This document shows, one piece after another, positions 19,800 to 27,889 of a stretch of 64,000 nucleotides of DNA (its first letter is position 1; each line of letters starts with the position of its first letter). This DNA comes from Candidatus Desulfovibrio trichonymphae. GTDB taxonomy: Bacteria > Desulfobacterota > Desulfovibrionia > Desulfovibrionales > Desulfovibrionaceae. Location: contig NZ_AP017368.1 of assembly GCF_002355955.1 (NCBI RefSeq), positions 124,001 through 188,000 on the forward strand, written 5' to 3'. The notes beneath the pieces are model-generated. The model was not told where the DNA came from, ran no database searches, and saw nothing but the letters and a program-made list of their open reading frames with translations. A program made the position numbers and the translations under genes.

Positions 19800-19918
19800 A
19801 TTTATGATATCCTAAATGTGTACTTATAGATGCATATATTATTGCTGTCCGGTCAAGGGGTAAAAGTCCGAAATCTGGTAATCCTCTCTAAGGGTATTCA
19901 GAAGTAGAGCCTATGCCG

Positions 19919-20128
19919 CTAGGTTTCTTTGCTGGCAGGAGAAAGACCGCCGTTCGACTGTTTGGGTCGTTCGTTGTTATACATCCAAAGCCGGCGTGCA
20001 GCAAAATCCTGCACTTCCTCAAAAGTTTCAAAGAGATACTGATTGAGCCGGTCATAGCGCACTGTCCGGTTGCAGCGTTCAATATACCCGTTCTGCTGGG
20101 CTGTGACCGGTTTGGATATAGCGGATTC
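19919..20128 (-). mobile_element. IS3-family transposase C-terminal remnant
   Basis: On the minus strand an uninterrupted stretch of 69 codons reads QNGYIERCNRTVRYDRLNQY, then LFETFEEVQDFAARRLWMYN, NERPKQSNGGLSP and a TAG at 19,919. This is the end of an IS3-group OrfB (the N-x-Y-I-E-R-x-N-R-T motif with the final catalytic Glu, then Y-N-x-x-R-P). Upstream, a stop at 20,129-20,131 and an apparent internal deletion (ISK runs straight into the last motif) remove the rest. No terminal inverted repeats are evident. It lies just upstream of the suy locus and is an inactive fragment. Confidence 0.8.
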
Positions 20129-20131
20129 CTA

Positions 20132-20372
20132 CCTCCCTCTTTATAACACAATCCTGCAAATATGACCGCGTAATACGTACTGCGGGGAGCGAAAAGTCAA
20201 TCTTCATGCTTAAGCTCAATAGACATTCAGCAGGCGAATACTTCGCCCCTCTCAGCCAGGCATGGCCTTAATTTCATTCTTGCTCTGGAACAGCCTTTGC
20301 ACTATTGTTGAGCTGTCAGGATGTGTGTGGCGTTTTGTAATGACAAGCTCTGAATATGGAGAAGGAGAGAGT
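20132..20372. other. Upstream region of suyA
   Basis: No gene is seen. AAGGAG at 20,362-20,367 is the ribosome site for suyA. I could not identify a convincing sigma-70 or sigma-54 promoter by eye. Confidence 0.4.
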
Positions 20373-20657
20373 ATGTCCATTGATTTCGTTGTGCATGAAG
20401 AAGCCGATGGGGTCGGAGTTGTGGTGGTGGAAGGCATCAAGGCGGGACAGGATTGCACAGGCTGGATTATGCAGGAGGACAGAACTGTTGCCTGCAAGGT
20501 GCTTGATGATATTCCTATCGGGCACAAGGTGGCTCTGAGAGATTTTGTCGTCGGAGATACTGTGATCAAGTACAACACGGATATCGGCAGGGCTGTGGCA
20601 TCCATTAAAAAGGGCGGGCATCTGCATGTGCACAATGTAAAAACAAAGAGGTGGTAG
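20373..20657 (+). CDS. suyA: Putative (2R)-sulfolactate sulfo-lyase small subunit
   Basis: 94 residues from ATG 20373, which has AAGGAG correctly spaced; a longer upstream frame has no such site. The whole protein is one SAF-type domain of the UxaA/altronate dehydratase N-terminal family: IPIGHKVALRDFVVGDTVIKY and the closing GGHLHVHNVKTKRW. Stand-alone small subunits of this size occur in SuyA of sulfolactate sulfo-lyase and in UxaA-like two-part dehydratases. With the adjacent large subunit (3-base gap) it would eliminate sulfite from (R)-3-sulfolactate to give pyruvate. The substrate is inferred from the partner gene; a sugar-acid dehydratase is the alternative. Confidence 0.72.
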   Translation: MSIDFVVHEEADGVGVVVVEGIKAGQDCTGWIMQEDRTVACKVLDDIPIGHKVALRDFVVGDTVIKYNTDIGRAVASIKKGGHLHVHNVKTKRW

Positions 20658-20660
20658 GAG

Positions 20661-21821
20661 ATGCAAACAACATTTTATGGCTATCGCCGCGACAATGGTC
20701 GGGTCGGCATTCGCAATCATGTCGTCATCCTGCCGCTTGACGATCTTTCCAACGCCGCCTGCGAGGCTGTGGCCAACAACATCAAGGGTACGATGGCTCT
20801 GCCGCACGCCTATGGCCGTCTGCAGTTCGGCGAAGATCTTGATCTGCATTTCCGCACAGTTATCGGCACAGGCTGCAACCCCAATGTGGCCGCTGTTGTG
20901 GTTATCGGCATTGAGCCGGTCTGGACGCAGCGCATTGTGGACGGCATTGCCGAAACCGGCAAGCCGGTCGCCGGATTCGGGATTGAAAAACACGGCGATC
21001 TGGAAACAATTATGCTTGCGTCCAAAAAAGTCAAAGAATTTGTTCACTATGCCACAGAGCTGCAGCGTGTGAAATGCAAGGTCAACGAACTGTGGGTCTC
21101 GTGCAAATGCGGTGAATCAGACACAACTTCCGGCATCGCCTCCAACCCCACTGTGGGCAACGCATTTGACAAATTGTGGGAAGCCGGCGCGACAACGATA
21201 TTTGGCGAAACCACAGAGATCACCGGGGGCGAGCACCTTGTCATGGACAGGTGCGTCAATAAGGAAGTGCGGGCCAAGTTCAAGTTTTTCTTTGACCGTT
21301 ATGCCAAGGTTGTGGATGAGCATAAAGTTGATGATCTTTGTGACTCTCAGCCGACCAAGGGCAATATTGAGGGCGGCCTGACAACCATTGAGGAAAAAGC
21401 GCTGGGCAATGTTCAGAAAATAGGCCGCAAAGCGCCGGTCATCGGTTGCCTTGACAAGGCTGAAGCCCCAACCGGGCCAGGGTTGTGGTTCATGGATTCT
21501 TCTTCCGCCGCAGCGGAAATGGTGACGCTTGTTGCGGCAGCTGGCTTTGTTGTCCATTTCTTCCCGACAGGTCAGGGCAACATTATCGGCAATCCCATTC
21601 TGCCGGTGATCAAGCTTTCAGCCAACCCGCGCACTGTCCGCACAATGAACGAACATATTGACGTGGATGTTTCAGGCATTCTGCGCCGCGAGCTCAATCT
21701 TGATCAGGCCGGCGACAAACTGCTTGAAATGATGTTCCGCACCTGCAACGGGCGGAATACTTCGGCTGAAACACTGGGACACAGGGAATTCATCATGACG
21801 AAATTGTATGAAAGCGCCTAG
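20661..21821 (+). CDS. suyB: Putative (2R)-sulfolactate sulfo-lyase large subunit
   Basis: 386 residues, UxaA-family large domain. It opens with [20 protein letters not shown], and has [62 protein letters not shown] and ends [14 protein letters not shown]. These blocks match my recollection of SuyB more closely than altronate or galactarate dehydratases. Cysteines near 75, 148, 150 and 263 could serve iron binding. The product would release sulfite and pyruvate in the cytoplasm. Neighbours fit: SuyA directly before, a tripartite tricarboxylate-type transporter after, and a degraded Ldh2/ComC-type dehydrogenase. Sulfite would feed dissimilatory sulfite reduction in a Desulfovibrio-like host. 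Not verified by phylogeny. Confidence 0.75.
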
Positions 21822-21834
21822 CGAAGCAAGCGGC

Positions 21835-21892
21835 GCAAGCGCACAAAGCGTCGCCTGCCTGGAAAGCAGATGACGGCGCTTTGTGCGCTTGC
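21835..21892 (+). terminator. Strong hairpin after suyB
   Basis: Perfect 16-base arms (21,835-21,850 and 21,877-21,892) around a 26-base loop lie 14 bases after the suyB stop; C34 and G93 of this block extend it by one pair. The arm is GCAAGCGCACAAAGCG. A U-run is absent, so it may be a processing or stabilising hairpin as much as a terminator. It marks the boundary between the suyAB pair and the AT-rich small genes. Confidence 0.6.
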
Positions 21893-22008
21893 GGGGAGTT
21901 GCGGTGCCGCAGCGGTTGACTTTGACGGCAACACTGGAAATCTTCAATTAGTTAGATTGGGTGATGCTACTTCCCATAGAAATAAATATAATATAAAAAG
22001 GAGACTAT

Positions 22009-22305
22009 ATGAAATTTATCTTATTTTTGATTTTCGTCTTGATATTATTTGGGGCGTCGCCAATATGTAGTCATGCGGTAGTAAATATTTGTGGTCAACA
22101 AAACAACTCGGTAAAGGTCTACGTTGACGGTAAAGTCATTGATGCCGCAAATATCCAATGCAACCCTAAAGGAAGTAAAAAGGGTTCTGAAGGGTGGGTG
22201 ATTTACAGTACTGATGGGGCCGGATATCATTTCCCTCTCACCACAAGGATATTTGACAAAAGTACACGGAGTGAGATGAGATGTACACATTATTCTCATA
22301 ATTAA
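22009..22305 (+). CDS. Small secreted protein, unknown function
   Basis: 98 residues. A strong signal peptide (MKFILFLIFVLILFGASPIC, cleavage near SHA) is followed by a mature domain of about 75 residues with three cysteines (NIC, IQC, MRC). AAAAAGGAGACT before the ATG is an excellent ribosome site. I do not recognise the family. The base composition is clearly more AT-rich than the flanking suyB and tctC genes, which suggests recent acquisition or fast evolution. It is followed 11 bases later by a second tiny gene with a very similar leader, so the two look like a pair. A role in substrate binding or envelope stress is possible but unsupported. Confidence 0.65.
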   Translation: MKFILFLIFVLILFGASPICSHAVVNICGQQNNSVKVYVDGKVIDAANIQCNPKGSKKGSEGWVIYSTDGAGYHFPLTTRIFDKSTRSEMRCTHYSHN

Positions 22306-22316
22306 AAGGAAGACAT

Positions 22317-22460
22317 ATGAAAACTGTGGTATTTTTGATGATAGCTTTTGTGATGTTTTTGTCAATATCTGTTTGTAGTTATGCGGCAAGAGAAGATTAC
22401 ATGTGTAAAACATGTAAAATTCTTCATGTTGAAGACAATGGTACAAAAGTTGAAAAATAG
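22317..22460 (+). CDS. Tiny secreted CxxC protein, unknown function
   Basis: 47 residues, with AAAAGGAAG before the ATG. The leader (MKTVVFLMIAFVMFLSISVC, then SYAA) is strikingly like that of the preceding protein, including the VC/IC-S-x-A end. The mature peptide is only about 23 residues: AREDYMCKTCKILHVEDNGT, then KVEK, with one CxxC. It could be a miniature metal- or haem-binding peptide, a secreted signal, or the N-terminus of a truncated gene. AT-rich like its neighbour. Function unknown. Confidence 0.5.
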   Translation: MKTVVFLMIAFVMFLSISVCSYAAREDYMCKTCKILHVEDNGTKVEK

Positions 22461-22600
22461 TGGAAATCAGATGAATTCTTAACCAGGCAGACAAGGAGTG
22501 TGTCCCGTAGATTTGGATGCTCGGCACGGGTCTTAATTGAGGTTCGTTTGCGGTTGCCGCAATCCTAAGCCCCTGCATGAGCTTTAACCTGTTATATCAG

Positions 22601-22624
22601 TCGGAGGTTCCATCGGAGGTTCCA
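22601..22624 (+). promoter_or_regulatory. Tandem 12-bp duplication carrying the tctC ribosome site
   Basis: TCGGAGGTTCCA occurs twice in direct tandem (22,601-22,612 and 22,613-22,624), and the last A is the first base of the tctC ATG. Each copy contains a GGAGG Shine-Dalgarno core, so the gene has a proximal and a distal ribosome site. Slippage here would change the number of sites. Confidence 0.8.
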
Positions 22625-23571
22625 TGAAAACGCGTTTTTTTACGGCAGCTGCCTTGGCGGCAGCCCTGTTGCTGTCTTTGACGAACGGCGCGGCCTATGC
22701 CGAATATCCCGACAAGCCCGTCAACATGATCATCGCCTTCAGCGCCGGCGGATCAAGCGACGTGCAGGCCCGCATCATGCAGAAATACTGGGATAAACTC
22801 GTCCCGCAACAGTGGACCTTTGTCTACAAGCCCGGCGCCGGCGGTGCTATCGGTTTCGGCGAAATCGCCATGGCGAAAAAAGACGGTTACACCATCGGCG
22901 GCATCAACATTCCGCATCTGATCATCCAGGCTGTCACGCAAAAAGCGCAGTTCAAACTGGCTGATTTTGACTACATCTGTCAGGTGGTCAATGACCCGCA
23001 GTGTGTTGTAGTGCGCAAGGACAGCGCCCTGAAAAGCGTCAAGGAAATGTTTGATTACGCAAAGGCCAATCCCGGCAAGCTCAAGGTCGGGCTTGTCGGC
23101 CCGAACAGCGGGCACCATCTGATGTATTTCGACGTGCAAAAGAAGGTCGGCTTTCCTGTCACGGAAGTGTTTTACAAGGGTGCCGCAGACCAGAACGTGG
23201 CTCTGCTCGGTGGAGAGGTTGACGTAGTGTTCGGCAATCTGAACGACGTCATGCGCAGCCTTGAAGAGATGTGCGTGCTTGCCCTTGCCGGTGAAAAGCG
23301 CAACGACTTTCTGCCTGACGTGCCCACGCTGCGGGACGAAGGCTTTGACATCGTGTCCGACATACGCCGCGCCTTTGTAGCGCCCAGCGGCATTCCCGCC
23401 GGACACCTTGCCTTTTTACGCGACGCGTTCAAAAAGATATGCACAAACCCCGACTATCTCAAAGACATGAAAATAGCCGGGCAGCCGGCCGAATATCTGG
23501 ACGGCGAGGCATTGCTCAGGCACATGCAGTCGCTGGACGCGGACATCAAGGCCGCGTTCGCGAAAAAATAA
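22624..23571 (+). CDS. Tripartite tricarboxylate transporter binding protein (TctC family)
   Basis: 315 residues with a signal peptide (about 1-26, ending AAYA). The mature protein starts YPDKPVNMIIAFSAGGSSDVQAR, the hallmark of TctC/Bug periplasmic receptors (YP-x-(K/R)-P-(V/I) and F-x-A-G-G-x-x-D), and has the second ligand loop KPGAGGAIGFGEIA. The C-terminal block VPTLRDEGFDI is also typical. It would capture a carboxylate in the periplasm for the downstream TctA-TctB permease. In sulfolactate degraders such as Chromohalobacter, a transporter of this class (SlcHFG) is linked to suyAB, so sulfolactate is a plausible ligand here; tricarboxylates are the alternative. Confidence 0.9.
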   Translation: MKTRFFTAAALAAALLLSLTNGAAYAEYPDKPVNMIIAFSAGGSSDVQARIMQKYWDKLVPQQWTFVYKPGAGGAIGFGEIAMAKKDGYTIGGINIPHLIIQAVTQKAQFKLADFDYICQVVNDPQCVVVRKDSALKSVKEMFDYAKANPGKLKVGLVGPNSGHHLMYFDVQKKVGFPVTEVFYKGAADQNVALLGGEVDVVFGNLNDVMRSLEEMCVLALAGEKRNDFLPDVPTLRDEGFDIVSDIRRAFVAPSGIPAGHLAFLRDAFKKICTNPDYLKDMKIAGQPAEYLDGEALLRHMQSLDADIKAAFAKK

Positions 23572-23670
23572 TGCGAACGCTCGGCCGGCGCTGTTGCCCG
23601 GAAACGCGCTACCCGGACAACAGCGCCCGGCTGTTCTTTCATACCTATACTTTTTCCTGCAGGAGCGCTC

Positions 23671-25659
23671 ATGAATGACTTTATCCTGCCCGTCCTCGCG
23701 AATCTTTGCGATCCGCTGAATATTTTTTTGATGGTAGCAGGTCTTGCCGGAGGAATTATCATAGGTGCCTTGCCCGGCCTGACCGCCACCATGGGCGTCG
23801 CGCTCATGGTGCCCGTCACCTTCGCCATGGACGCGACAAGCGGCCTGATCATGCTGGGGGCCATCTACGCCGGCGCAATTTACGGCGGCTCCAATGCGGC
23901 CTGTCTCATCTGCACGCCCGGCACACCCTCTTCCGTCGCCACCACCTTTGACGGCTGGCCCATGTGTCAGTCCGGCAGAGCGGACAAGGCGCTGATCACG
24001 TCGTTGCTGTCTTCCTCTTTCGGCGGTACTGTCGGCAACGTCTTTCTGTTGTGTCTGGCCGCGCCGCTGGCCCGTTTCGCCCTCAAGTTCGGGGGGCCCG
24101 AATCTTTCTGGCTGTGTCTGTTCGGCCTGTCCACCATTGCCGTCATGTCTTCTGGCAATATGCTCAAGGGCCTTGTGTCTGGCGCCATAGGCATGCTGGT
24201 GGCCACAGTGGGGCTTGACCCCCACGCGGCGTTGCCGCGTTTCACGTTTGAGTATTATCCGCTGATCCAGGGCGTGGAAGTAATACCAGCCATGATCGGC
24301 CTCTTTTCCTTTTCACAGGTGCTCTATCTGATAGGGAGCTACAAGCCCTTTATCGCAACGTATAACCCGAACAAGGGCGCGTTCGGCCAAGTCGTGCGCG
24401 AGCTCGCCGGCAAATGCAAGGTGGTGCTCCTCCGTTCTTCCGTCATCGGCACACTGGTCGGCATGTTGCCCGGAGCAGGCGGCGAAATAGCCGCGATTAT
24501 CGCCTACAATGAAACCAAGCGCTGGGACAGGAATCCTGACCGTTTCGGAACGGGCGTCATCGAAGGGGTGGCTTCCAGCGAGAGCTCGAACAACGCCGTT
24601 ATCGGCGGTTCGCTCATTCCCATGCTCACGCTGGGCATTCCAGGCAGCGCGGTGGCCGCCGTCATTCTGGGCGCGCTGCTTGCCAAGGGCATACAGCCCG
24701 GCTTCAAGGTGTTCACGGTTACCGGCGATCTGGCCTACACGTTCATTATGTCGCAGTTCGTCGTCAATCTGCTCATGATTCCCATAGGCCTGCTGCTCAT
24801 CAAACTGCTTGTGCGCCTGCTCAGCATACGCCTGACCTTCGTCGCCATCGGCATCGTGATGCTCTCCGTCATCGGATCCTACGCCATACGCAATAGCATG
24901 CTGGATATCTGGATTGTCCTGATTTTCGGCCTGCTGGGTTACTTCTGCAACAGGGTCAAGTTGGACACCGGCGCCATGGCCCTAGGCATCATTCTCGGCC
25001 CCATGATTGAGGAAAATTTTGGCAAATGCGTCGGTCTTTCCAAGGCTTCCGGCGGCTCGGTCATCCAGGTGTTTCTGGAAAGCCCCATCGCCCTGTTGCT
25101 CATCGGCTTTACCCTGCTTTCACTGGTGACGCCCCTTTTGCTGGACTGGAAGCGTAAGCGCGCCGCGGCCGAAGGGCAGGACACCGGCGCTGCCGGCGTG
25201 GGGGTTTCCGGCGCCGCCAATGTGGCCGCCGGGATTTTCTCCCTGGCAGTCTCGGCCGCTTTTTACACGCAACTGGGCGAACTGGAAGGCGTCGGCAAAA
25301 GCTATCCGCTGCTTATCCTGTGCTTTATCACTCTTGTGGGGGGGTATGTGCTGCTCCACGGTCTGAATCAAAGGTGCAAGAGCGCGGGCGGTGCGCCGCA
25401 GAACGACGGGGAGCCTGTGGCGTACCGCCGTGTGGCGTTCATCGCCGCGGCCTCCGTCGTCTATGTGGTTCTCATTCCCATCCTGGGATTCTATGCGGTG
25501 AGCGCTGTTTTCCTTTTCGGATCGGCCATGCTGCTCAACGACTCGCAGACTTCGCCATTCAGGGCGGCCTGCCTGTTGACGGTGATCATGTGTACTGTCG
25601 TCTGGGCCGGCTTTGCCAAACTGCTGAATATTCCGACCCCGGAAGGGCTGCTGTTCTAA
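23671..25659 (+). CDS. TctA-TctB fusion permease
   Basis: 662 residues. The first 495 or so are TctA, the large membrane subunit of tripartite tricarboxylate transporters: GLPG motif variant IGALPGLTATMGVALMVPVTF near 30-50, GAIYGGSNAACLICTPGTPSS near 68-88, and GMLPGAGGEIAA and LTLGIPGSAVAA later, with about 11-12 transmembrane helices. From about 510, after a polar linker (KRKRAAAEGQDTG), a further four-helix segment of about 150 residues matches the small subunit TctB in size and hydropathy. The two subunits are usually separate genes. It is 99 bases downstream of tctC and probably co-transcribed. Confidence 0.88.
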   Translation: MNDFILPVLANLCDPLNIFLMVAGLAGGIIIGALPGLTATMGVALMVPVTFAMDATSGLIMLGAIYAGAIYGGSNAACLICTPGTPSSVATTFDGWPMCQSGRADKALITSLLSSSFGGTVGNVFLLCLAAPLARFALKFGGPESFWLCLFGLSTIAVMSSGNMLKGLVSGAIGMLVATVGLDPHAALPRFTFEYYPLIQGVEVIPAMIGLFSFSQVLYLIGSYKPFIATYNPNKGAFGQVVRELAGKCKVVLLRSSVIGTLVGMLPGAGGEIAAIIAYNETKRWDRNPDRFGTGVIEGVASSESSNNAVIGGSLIPMLTLGIPGSAVAAVILGALLAKGIQPGFKVFTVTGDLAYTFIMSQFVVNLLMIPIGLLLIKLLVRLLSIRLTFVAIGIVMLSVIGSYAIRNSMLDIWIVLIFGLLGYFCNRVKLDTGAMALGIILGPMIEENFGKCVGLSKASGGSVIQVFLESPIALLLIGFTLLSLVTPLLLDWKRKRAAAEGQDTGAAGVGVSGAANVAAGIFSLAVSAAFYTQLGELEGVGKSYPLLILCFITLVGGYVLLHGLNQRCKSAGGAPQNDGEPVAYRRVAFIAAASVVYVVLIPILGFYAVSAVFLFGSAMLLNDSQTSPFRAACLLTVIMCTVVWAGFAKLLNIPTPEGLLF

Positions 25660-25689
25660 GACAAGGAGCACGGAGGGTGAACACGTCGC

Positions 25690-26610
25690 TTGGAGACTGT
25701 GGTGGAAGCCTTGCTTGACGCCGAGCTTGACGGCATATCCTCACACGGCCTTTCCCGTCTGCCTTTTTACGCCGATCGGGCAATGTACGGCAAAGTGCGC
25801 GCGAACGCCGTTCCTGTGACGACAAACCCGGCTCTCGGCGTTGTGCTGGGTGACGCCTGTAACGGTTTTGCTTTTCCGGCCATAAACGCCGGTCTGGATG
25901 CGGCGTTTGCGCGCGTAGCGGAGCAGAGGGCGTCTGTTCGCTGGGTGTCAGGCGCTCGCACCACTGCGGCGTTCTGGGGCATTTTGTGGAAAAAATAGCC
26001 GCTCACGGACTGATTGGTCTGGCTTTTGCCAACTCGCCCGCCGCCATGGCCCCGTGGGGAGGGAGAAGGCGCGTTTTCGGCACGAACCCGTTGGCCTTCG
26101 GGGGGTGTCCGCGACTGCGGGGAGCCTGTCGTCATTGACCTTTCTTTGAGCGTTGTCGCGCGCGGCAAAGTCATGCTTGCCAGACAGTGCGGAGAAAAGC
26201 TGCCTCCCGGCTGGGCGTTGGACGTCGATGGCCGTGAGACCACAGACCCGGACGCGGCCCTTGCGGGCACTATGACGCCGCTGGGCGGGGCCAAGGGCGC
26301 GGCTTTGGCCATGATGGTGGAAATATTGGCCGCAACGCTCACCGGGTCGAGCCACGCGTCCGAGGCCAGTTCACTTTTTGACGCGCATGGGCCGCCGCCC
26401 AATTTGGGGTAGTTCTTTTTGCTGATTGATCCGAAGCCCTTCAACCCTGCGTTTCTGTCTCGGGTAGAGGCGCTGTGCAACGATGTTTTGAGTCAGGAAA
26501 ACACGCGTTTGCCGGGAATGCGACGGCAACAGGAGCGCCGCGCCAGAGAGCGCGCCGGTCTGAGCATTCCCGTCGGGCTGCTTGCCGAACTGCGGCGCTG
26601 CGCCGGCGTG
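25690..26610 (+). pseudogene. Ldh2/ComC-type dehydrogenase, frameshifted
   Basis: Pieces of one malate/L-lactate (Ldh2/MDH2) dehydrogenase are scattered over three frames: AELDGISSHGLSRLPFYADR (25,729 on), then SHHCGVLGHFVEKIAAHGLI and ANSPAAMAPWGG to GTNPLAFGG (about 25,950-26,100), then VVIDLSLSVVARGKVMLA to MTPLGGAKGAALAMMVEILA. A TAG at 26,410-26,412 interrupts PNLG-x-FFLLIDPKPF where Gln (CAG) is expected, and the tail continues to LLAELRR. The N-terminal 20-30 residues are missing, one frameshift lies near 25,945 and one in a G run at 26,100-26,105. ComC, an (R)-sulfolactate dehydrogenase, belongs to this family, so this may be a lost branch of the sulfonate pathway. Confidence 0.85.
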
Positions 26611-27572
26611 TCAGCTCTCGGCAAAGGGTTTCCAGAGCACGAACAGGGCGACGAACAACCCCGCGCACAGCGCGTACACCGTGTTGATGCCGAGCAGAGC
26701 GTTCAGGCTGTATGCCAGCAGAGGGCCAAAGGCCGCACCCATGTCCGTCAGCAGGGCATAGGCCATGAGCAATGAATGACCCCCCGCCTCTGCGGACGCA
26801 TTCGCAGCGCCTGTGTCCGCCAGGGTGGTCAATGCCGTGGCTGTGGCGCATGCGAACCAGAGGGGCAAGGGCAGTGGCAGGGCCAACAGGGCGAAAATGA
26901 CAGCTCCGCACCCGAAGGCGTACAGGAAAAGAAGCTGCCACCCGTAACGGGCGTCAGCGAGTTTTCCTGTCAGGGGTGCGAGCCAGGGTTCACAGCCCCA
27001 GCGCAGGGCCTGCAATATGCCGGCCAGCGTGGCCGTGCCCAGACTGAACACTACGGCACAGAAGCGCAGGCCGACCATGTCCGCCAGCATCCTCCCCCGA
27101 GCATGCCGGCGAGGCTCCCCAGGCGGTACAAGCCGTTGTACAGGCCTCGTGTCGTCGGTGTGGAGATTTTCAGGATACAGAACAGAGAGCCGAGGCGCAG
27201 CAGGGACCAGGCAAGACCCCAGACGCAACGGGCCAACACCCACCAGACAAGGCCCTGCAGGAAGCCGTAAGAAAGGGTGGTCAGTATGCCGAGCAGCATC
27301 GCGATGCAGACGCCCGTGCGTTCACTGATACGGGAATACAGGCGTCCGATGAAAGGGTTGAGGGGAAGTCGCACCAGGCGGTTGACCGAGAGCAGGGCCC
27401 CCACCTCCCACAACGAGGTCAGACCGGCCTGTTGAAAATACACGGGCAGCACAGTGTAGAGCATGGAATCGCCCATCAGGCACAGGGCGGTGACAAGCGC
27501 GAATACACTGATATGTCGTCTGTTTTTTGCATCATCCATGGCAAGTTGTCTGCGGATTCCATAAGAAGGCAT
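26611..27572 (-). pseudogene. MFS transporter, single frameshift
   Basis: Two overlapping minus-strand frames make one 12-helix major facilitator protein of roughly 360 residues. The first reads from the start to GSLAGMLGG and has SVNRLVRLPLNPFIGRLYSR, the MFS loop 2-3 motif. The second picks up at RMLADMVGL and runs through PWLAPLTGKLADARYGW to the end. They are joined across a run of five C (27,094-27,098 on the plus strand), so one inserted or deleted base separates them. This may be a true pseudogene, a phase-variable tract or a sequencing error. It converges on the dead dehydrogenase. ATGs at 27572 and 27539 are both possible starts. Confidence 0.8.
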
Positions 27573-27889
27573 CTCGTGAGCAAGCCCGCCCTGTGCGCCT
27601 GTCAGGATATAATAAACATGGCTCTAGAGCATCAGGTTTTTGGCGAGCAACCTTTTGAAGCTGCCGATAAGCTGCTCCAGCGGCTGATCGTATTGCCACT
27701 TGCCTGCACACCTCTGACAGGTTTCTGTGTGAGGGACTGTGCGTAAACTATCCAGTCCACAGCCATTGGATGCTTGCGGTACACACGCCGTATGCGATTT
27801 CGCCCGCGATGCTCAAAAAGGAATTCTCGCCCAAAGATTTTTCTGTCGAGGTCAACCAAACATGGCGCGTCCGCGCGTTGTATGCTCCT
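27573..27889. other. Degenerate intergenic segment
   Basis: No intact gene. On the minus strand several frames carry protein-like fragments, for example VYRKHPMAVDWIVYAQSLT and, one frame over, ETCQRCAGKWQYDQPLEQL followed by IGSFKRLLAKNLML, ending just before the MFS remnant. The change of frame in mid-sequence and the lack of a start suggest the eroded end of an unidentified gene or insertion element. I could not name the family. Confidence 0.35.

Follow-up and report, generated by a model that had tools for sequence, protein, structure and literature searches.

In Desulfovibrio sp. DF1, the lyase SuyAB, reconstituted with Fe2+, is reported to cleave sulfolactate (PMC6278857). The described substrate of this enzyme is (R)-sulfolactate, to which the (S) form is converted by SlcC and ComC (PMC10507020, PMC11131964). 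In Taurinivorans muris, SlcC, ComC and SuyAB are described together with a TTT transporter, SlcGFH, presented as a putative sulfolactate importer (PMC10507020). For ‘Ca. Desulfovibrio trichonymphae’ Rs-N31, which lives in symbiosis with Trichonympha agilis, a protist of the termite gut, the published account gives a complete genome of 1.4 Mb (54.8% GC) with 188 pseudogenes, pseudogenised lactate use and TctABC present (PMC7608387). We analysed a window of 64,000 nucleotides (GC 55.3%), bases 124001–188000 of the single-contig genome of ‘Candidatus Desulfovibrio trichonymphae’ (G000; 1,410,056 bases, 98.9% complete), which carries a putative sulfolactate desulfonation locus at 20373–26610 with the following features:

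20373–20657, plus strand: suyA, predicted (R)-sulfolactate sulfo-lyase small subunit, 94 aa (family match, position beside suyB)
20661–21821, plus strand: suyB, predicted (R)-sulfolactate sulfo-lyase large subunit, 386 aa (Pfam, tree, invariant residues)
22009–22305, plus strand: lineage-restricted small secreted ORF, 98 aa (signal-peptide-like start, by eye)
22317–22460, plus strand: second small ORF, 47 aa, signal-peptide-like start (by eye)
22624–23571, plus strand: tctC, TTT periplasmic binding protein (PF03401, E 1.4e-36)
23671–25659, plus strand: tctA-tctB fusion, TTT permease, 662 aa in one ORF (PF01970 (TctA), E 3.7e-137; PF07331 (TctB), E 3.8e-13)
about 25690–26610, plus strand: comC pseudogene, Ldh_2-type (R)-sulfolactate dehydrogenase (split Ldh_2 matches, internal stops)

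A sequence-only reading of the window had named each of these genes, and all lie where it placed them. The arrangement is not a chance one, since related genomes repeat both the gene order and the identity of the proteins. The TctA, TctB and TctC domains of a TTT transporter are all present, with PF01970, PF07331 and PF03401 over cut-off. A scan for promoter-like sites gave 5 against a shuffle mean of 3.5, and none of them lies immediately 5′ of suyA. By eye, the end of an IS3-type transposase lies on the minus strand just 5′ of suyA (19888–20151), and positions 19803–20020, part of the transposase-like stretch, align at 85% upstream of suyA in locus L002 of the relatives. Beyond comC, a convergent minus-strand transporter gene (26611–27572, MFS-like by eye) has lost about 250 bases and is broken; its counterpart in the sister genome G009 is an unbroken 400-aa ORF (L121:5712–6914). 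A short minus-strand remnant at 27632–27859 resembles part of MetE by eye and is matched in G009 by a full 755-aa ORF (L121:3235–5502), in agreement with the report that Rs-N31 has only MetH (PMC7608387).

The two small ORFs occupy an AT-rich stretch between suyB and tctC (21950–22480, GC 34.7%). The 98-aa ORF matched no Pfam family, a second DNA copy was not found in the genome at E <= 1e-5, and a protein search returned two homologues, one of them from ‘Deltaproteobacteria bacterium AGMMS49974’. In loci L003 and L004 the suyB–tctC gap is about 0.2 kb and leaves no room for such ORFs. We considered these small secreted genes as pathway members and rejected them, on the lack of a family, of a second copy and of any place in the L003 and L004 gap. 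Different small secreted ORFs lie upstream of tctC in G009 (L121 11433–12503, minus strand).

The suyA product aligns with the N-terminal region of galactarate dehydratase (TIGR03248, E 2.6e-8; PDB 3k3s, E 4.1e-9), as expected for SuyA. It is encoded as a separate small subunit directly upstream of suyB, ending 3 bases before it, and the adjacency is repeated in relatives. SuyB carries two GD_AH domains, PF04295 (E 1.4e-33) and PF20629 (E 7.4e-87); no other protein of the genome matches PF04295 at E <= 0.001. For phylogeny, a 40-row tree combined the window protein, G009, 29 of 80 loci hand-picked for spread and four plasmid SuyBs with two proteins of one haloarchaeal locus, one E. albertii protein, and E. 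coli UxaA and GarD, each entered from residue 101. Within a 35-row SuyB group (support 100/99) that takes in Desulfovibrio, Cupriavidus pinatubonensis, Paracoccus versutus and Sinorhizobium mexicanum, the window SuyB joins G009 (100/98), and E. coli UxaA and GarD stand apart; the outgroup branches are very long and drew a warning from the tool. We know of no row in the tree that is an enzyme purified from that record. The C. pinatubonensis protein, 74.5% identical to the window SuyB, serves as an anchor because of its hpsN neighbourhood: its SuyAB-like genes adjoin annotated hpsN and hpsO and a TTT binding-protein gene. The 314 plasmid records matching SuyB comprised 13 at 60–80% identity and 301 below 60%; among the 25 matches listed, SuyB-like proteins reach down to 64.8% identity and the next one stands at 39.5%. 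The window SuyB keeps 144 of the 145 columns that are invariant across 34 other SuyBs, residue 124 being the sole exception. At 33 of these 145 columns the residue is absent from all five outgroup rows, and 21 are common to all five. A place among the sugar-acid dehydratases had been named beforehand as the outcome that would speak against SuyB; the protein falls outside the UxaA/GarD clade. As far as sequence can say, suyA and suyB would encode SuyAB, the (R)-sulfolactate sulfo-lyase.

SuyB was detected in 47 of 149 relatives (E <= 1e-100), and linkage was scored by direct tblastn on 35 loci (L002–L036). In 16 of these (L003–L009, L011, L012, L015, L019, L025–L027, L030 and L035), the examined flank of suyB contains a TctC orthologue with an identity of 60% or more. 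In the other 19 none was seen at this identity in the examined flank, some flanks ending at contig ends; long flanks without it (e.g. L014, L018, L022, L024 and L032) indicate that suyAB does without the transporter in some relatives. The full order is repeated in two Desulfovibrio MAGs that look termite-associated from their isolate codes, L003 and L004, in agreement with the earlier statement that a TTT transporter and comC accompany suyAB. L004 reads suyAB, tctC, tctAB, comC, and L003 has the same genes preceded by DhpA-like, DctM and SlaB-like genes; both share the suyA-suyB-tctC-tctAB (fusion)-comC order of the window but differ from it in that comC is unbroken. L005 reads LarA, DhpA-like, DctM, SlaB-like, suyAB, tctC, tctAB, slcC, and L006 is like L005 minus slcC. 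Neighbouring gene names are Pfam-backed at the family level only (Ldh_2, 2-hydroxyacid dehydrogenase, lactate racemase, aldehyde dehydrogenase, 3-hydroxyisobutyrate-type dehydrogenase and DctM), and the names DhpA and SlaB are putative, given by analogy with DF1. A contig of Nitratidesulfovibrio oxamicus carries two suyAB copies in tandem (L027:1852–5813).

Small genomes among the relatives vary. The sister G009 (1.4 Mb, 98% complete) has a SuyB 98% identical to that of the window; its suyAB lies at the end of contig C51 (apparently L002) and its tctC, tctAB and comC on C16, so that linkage there is not directly seen. G003 (1.6 Mb, 93% complete) retains tctC and tctAB as well as a suyB cut by the contig end; comC was found neither in the stretch examined nor genome-wide at E <= 1e-50. 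In G036 (1.6 Mb, 99% complete, about 40 contigs) neither SuyB nor TctAB was found.

The dehydrogenase gene is decayed, as had been proposed from the sequence: the Ldh_2 model matches it in three separate pieces, the start region is missing, the frame is shifted, and three stop codons (one TGA, two TAG) interrupt its alignment with an unbroken ComC. The gene is unbroken in L003 and L004 and also in G009, whose open frame extends past the usual end; its intact state in G009 makes the decay recent. Between the window and G009, suyB (dN/dS 0.08 by NG86, 0.11 by YN00), tctC (0.13 and 0.19) and tctAB (0.17 by both methods) are under purifying selection; values against L003 and L004 were near synonymous saturation and were not used. 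The constraint signal for suyA is weak (0.27 by NG86, 0.54 by YN00, over only 94 codons; 93.6% amino acid identity to G009). With L003 and L004 used for polarisation, the changes along the branch leading to the window fell 12/4/5 at codon positions 1/2/3 in the comC body and 13/12/30 in suyB, tctC and tctAB together (positions 1+2 versus 3, Fisher p 0.021, with small counts). The body-only count was preferred, the whole-gene comC count (17/10/9) including misaligned sequence at the start. From these counts, comC seems to have lost its codon-position bias and to be free of the constraint that still acts on the neighbouring genes.

We then considered which enantiomer the pathway could accept. 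SlcC occurs in 9 of the 149 relatives (E <= 1e-60), ComC in 28 (E <= 1e-50) and a LarA-type gene (PF09861, PF21113) in 22 (E <= 1e-60). Of these three, G000 and G009 have only ComC, and the G000 copy is broken; in neither genome did a search at E <= 1e-60 detect SlcC or a LarA-type racemase, a distant SlcC being possible. G000 also encodes a 308-aa 2-hydroxyacid dehydrogenase. The SlcC–ComC racemising route, which needs both enzymes working, is thus not complete in G000, and an alternative (S)-sulfolactate route was set aside when the SlcC and LarA-type searches came back empty at that threshold. The organism should be able to use only (R)-sulfolactate. Loss of comC had been proposed as the cause of such a restriction; single-enantiomer use stands, and comC loss as its first cause probably does not, because G009, with comC intact, also has no SlcC or LarA at E <= 1e-60, so the (S) route was probably incomplete before comC decayed.

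The LarA-type gene was found in 22 of the 47 genomes with SuyB and in none of the 102 others, a contrast whose Fisher value (1.3e-13) overstates the evidence, related genomes not being independent. In 21 of the 22 it lies on the suyB contig, on the same strand and at most about 6.2 kb away; the contigs differ in G137. It is present in 12 of the 35 loci (L005 (2892–4148), L006, L011, L012, L014, L017, L022, L027–L030 and L032) and co-occurs with SlcC only in G028. Among these loci, L022 belongs to the cultured D. cuneatus DSM 11391. In G017, SuyB is matched at two places separated by about 9 kb, each next to a LarA match. The best solved relative of the protein is the malate racemase Mar2 (E 1.8e-56), and the suyAB-linked LarA homologue may be a one-step nickel-dependent sulfolactate racemase. 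In the literature searched, screened by title and abstract, we found no description of a sulfolactate racemase, or of a lactate racemase tied to sulfolactate, and ‘sulfo’ and ‘suy’ are absent from the main texts of two papers on the LarA superfamily, supplements aside.

Sulfolactate respiration also requires a dissimilatory sulfite reductase, and G000 encodes DsrA in an open frame (631.9 bits against a cut-off of 392.85), which could take up sulfite as the terminal electron acceptor that had been suggested. The description of the genome as sulfite-reducing in type holds for DsrA and fails in that Sat and AprA, both with open frames in a genome search, mark it as sulfate-reducing; sulfate reduction has therefore not been replaced. 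From the locus and its linkage we infer the transporter substrate, the enantiomer restriction, the flow of sulfite to Dsr and the ecological role. TctC likely binds sulfolactate, and TctC and TctAB would import 3-sulfolactate. SuyAB, by its family, would cleave the (R) form to pyruvate and sulfite, with pyruvate serving as carbon and electron source. Sulfite released intracellularly requires no ATP-dependent activation, and Dsr would reduce it with electrons from H2 or pyruvate, avoiding the ATP cost of sulfate activation. We conclude that the locus is partly reduced but probably working in sulfolactate respiration. Counted against this are the 19 loci in which no TctC orthologue was seen, the weak suyA constraint, the contig split in G009, the two AT-rich ORFs between suyAB and tctC and the absence of a promoter-like site by suyA.

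Several other explanations were weighed. It is barely credible that suyA and suyB specify a sugar-acid dehydratase in two parts, akin to UxaA and GarD: the superfamily and Pfam domains are common to both, and some sources label relatives ‘UxaA family hydrolase’ or ‘D-galactarate dehydratase’, but UxaA and GarD of E. coli are single chains of about 29% identity that form a separate clade and lack the 33 SuyB-specific residues, and the TIGR03248 score is 144.1 against a cut-off of 730.85, although this model describes a one-chain enzyme longer than SuyB. This identity was rejected on tree placement, the sub-threshold TIGR03248 score and the SuyB-invariant residues. For the transporter, the published account places TctABC of Rs-N31 among tricarboxylate transporters, read as citrate or carboxylate uptake (PMC7608387); ‘sulfolactate’ has no occurrence in the main text of that paper. 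Import of citrate or another carboxylate, with the position beside suyAB incidental, agrees with that listing, with Pfam families named for tricarboxylate transport and with the relatives that have suyAB without TctC-TctAB, yet we hold it doubtful, given that the orthologous transporter adjoins suyAB in 16 of 35 loci, a more distant TTT (35–37% identity) does so in L028 and L029, C. pinatubonensis has a TctC gene beside suyAB, and T. muris is reported to co-express its TTT with sulfolactate genes (PMC10507020). Sulfolactate import by TctC-TctAB would fit the gene context better than the citrate or carboxylate reading and, if true, would reassign the published TctABC.

The locus could also be decaying and no longer working, with comC the first gene to go. 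Two adjacent broken genes, comC and the convergent transporter gene, point that way, as do the weak constraint on suyA and the lack of suyAB and TctAB in G036, another small genome; this is nevertheless unlikely, since suyB, tctC and tctAB all keep their full length, their dN/dS over the time since the split from G009 is low, and SuyB retains 144 of 145 invariant residues. It is quite improbable, too, that SuyAB is fed otherwise, by imported sulfopyruvate or cysteate or by DHPS whose oxidation is encoded at another place in the genome. Dehydrogenases resembling those of the DF1 DHPS route do lie upstream of suyAB in L003, L005 and L006, but SlaB, DhpA, DctM, SlcC and LarA were unmatched at E <= 1e-8 in the 64-kb window, which was the extent of the DhpA and SlaB search, and without ComC the known route from sulfopyruvate to (R)-sulfolactate is closed.

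If sulfolactate is indeed imported and split, this would be a possible respiration where sulfate is scarce, and sulfate in termite guts is reported to be low (PMC9137090). Retention of the importer and the lyase would give a third acceptor, supply carbon to a genome reported to lack lactate use and tie host sulfur chemistry to H2 removal. More speculatively, and with the balance somewhat against it, the symbiont might live partly on (R)-sulfolactate from the inside or surface of its host, as an internal sulfite source for H2 oxidation under low sulfate, with the published ‘tricarboxylate’ transporter as sulfolactate importer and comC loss marking a fixed one-handed supply. Across the relatives, a plausible course of reduction is one that retains import and desulfonation, with the DHPS and racemising arms variable or lost. 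The 2017 genome paper aside, we found in the literature searched no earlier description joining sulfolactate with a protist endosymbiont or, by title and abstract, with a termite.

The chemistry is thus known, and its setting in a reduced protist symbiont, well supported by the predicted genes, would be new. Desulfovibrio sp. DF1, which converts DHPS to acetate and H2S, is likewise described as using a two-subunit sulfolactate lyase feeding Dsr; DF1 forms its sulfolactate from DHPS via DhpA and SlaB (PMC6278857), whereas no such genes were matched in the window. Taurinivorans muris likewise combines SuyAB and ComC with a putative TTT importer, SlcHFG (PMC10507020), but is reported to have both SlcC and ComC, whereas in the symbiont genome SlcC was not found and ComC is broken.
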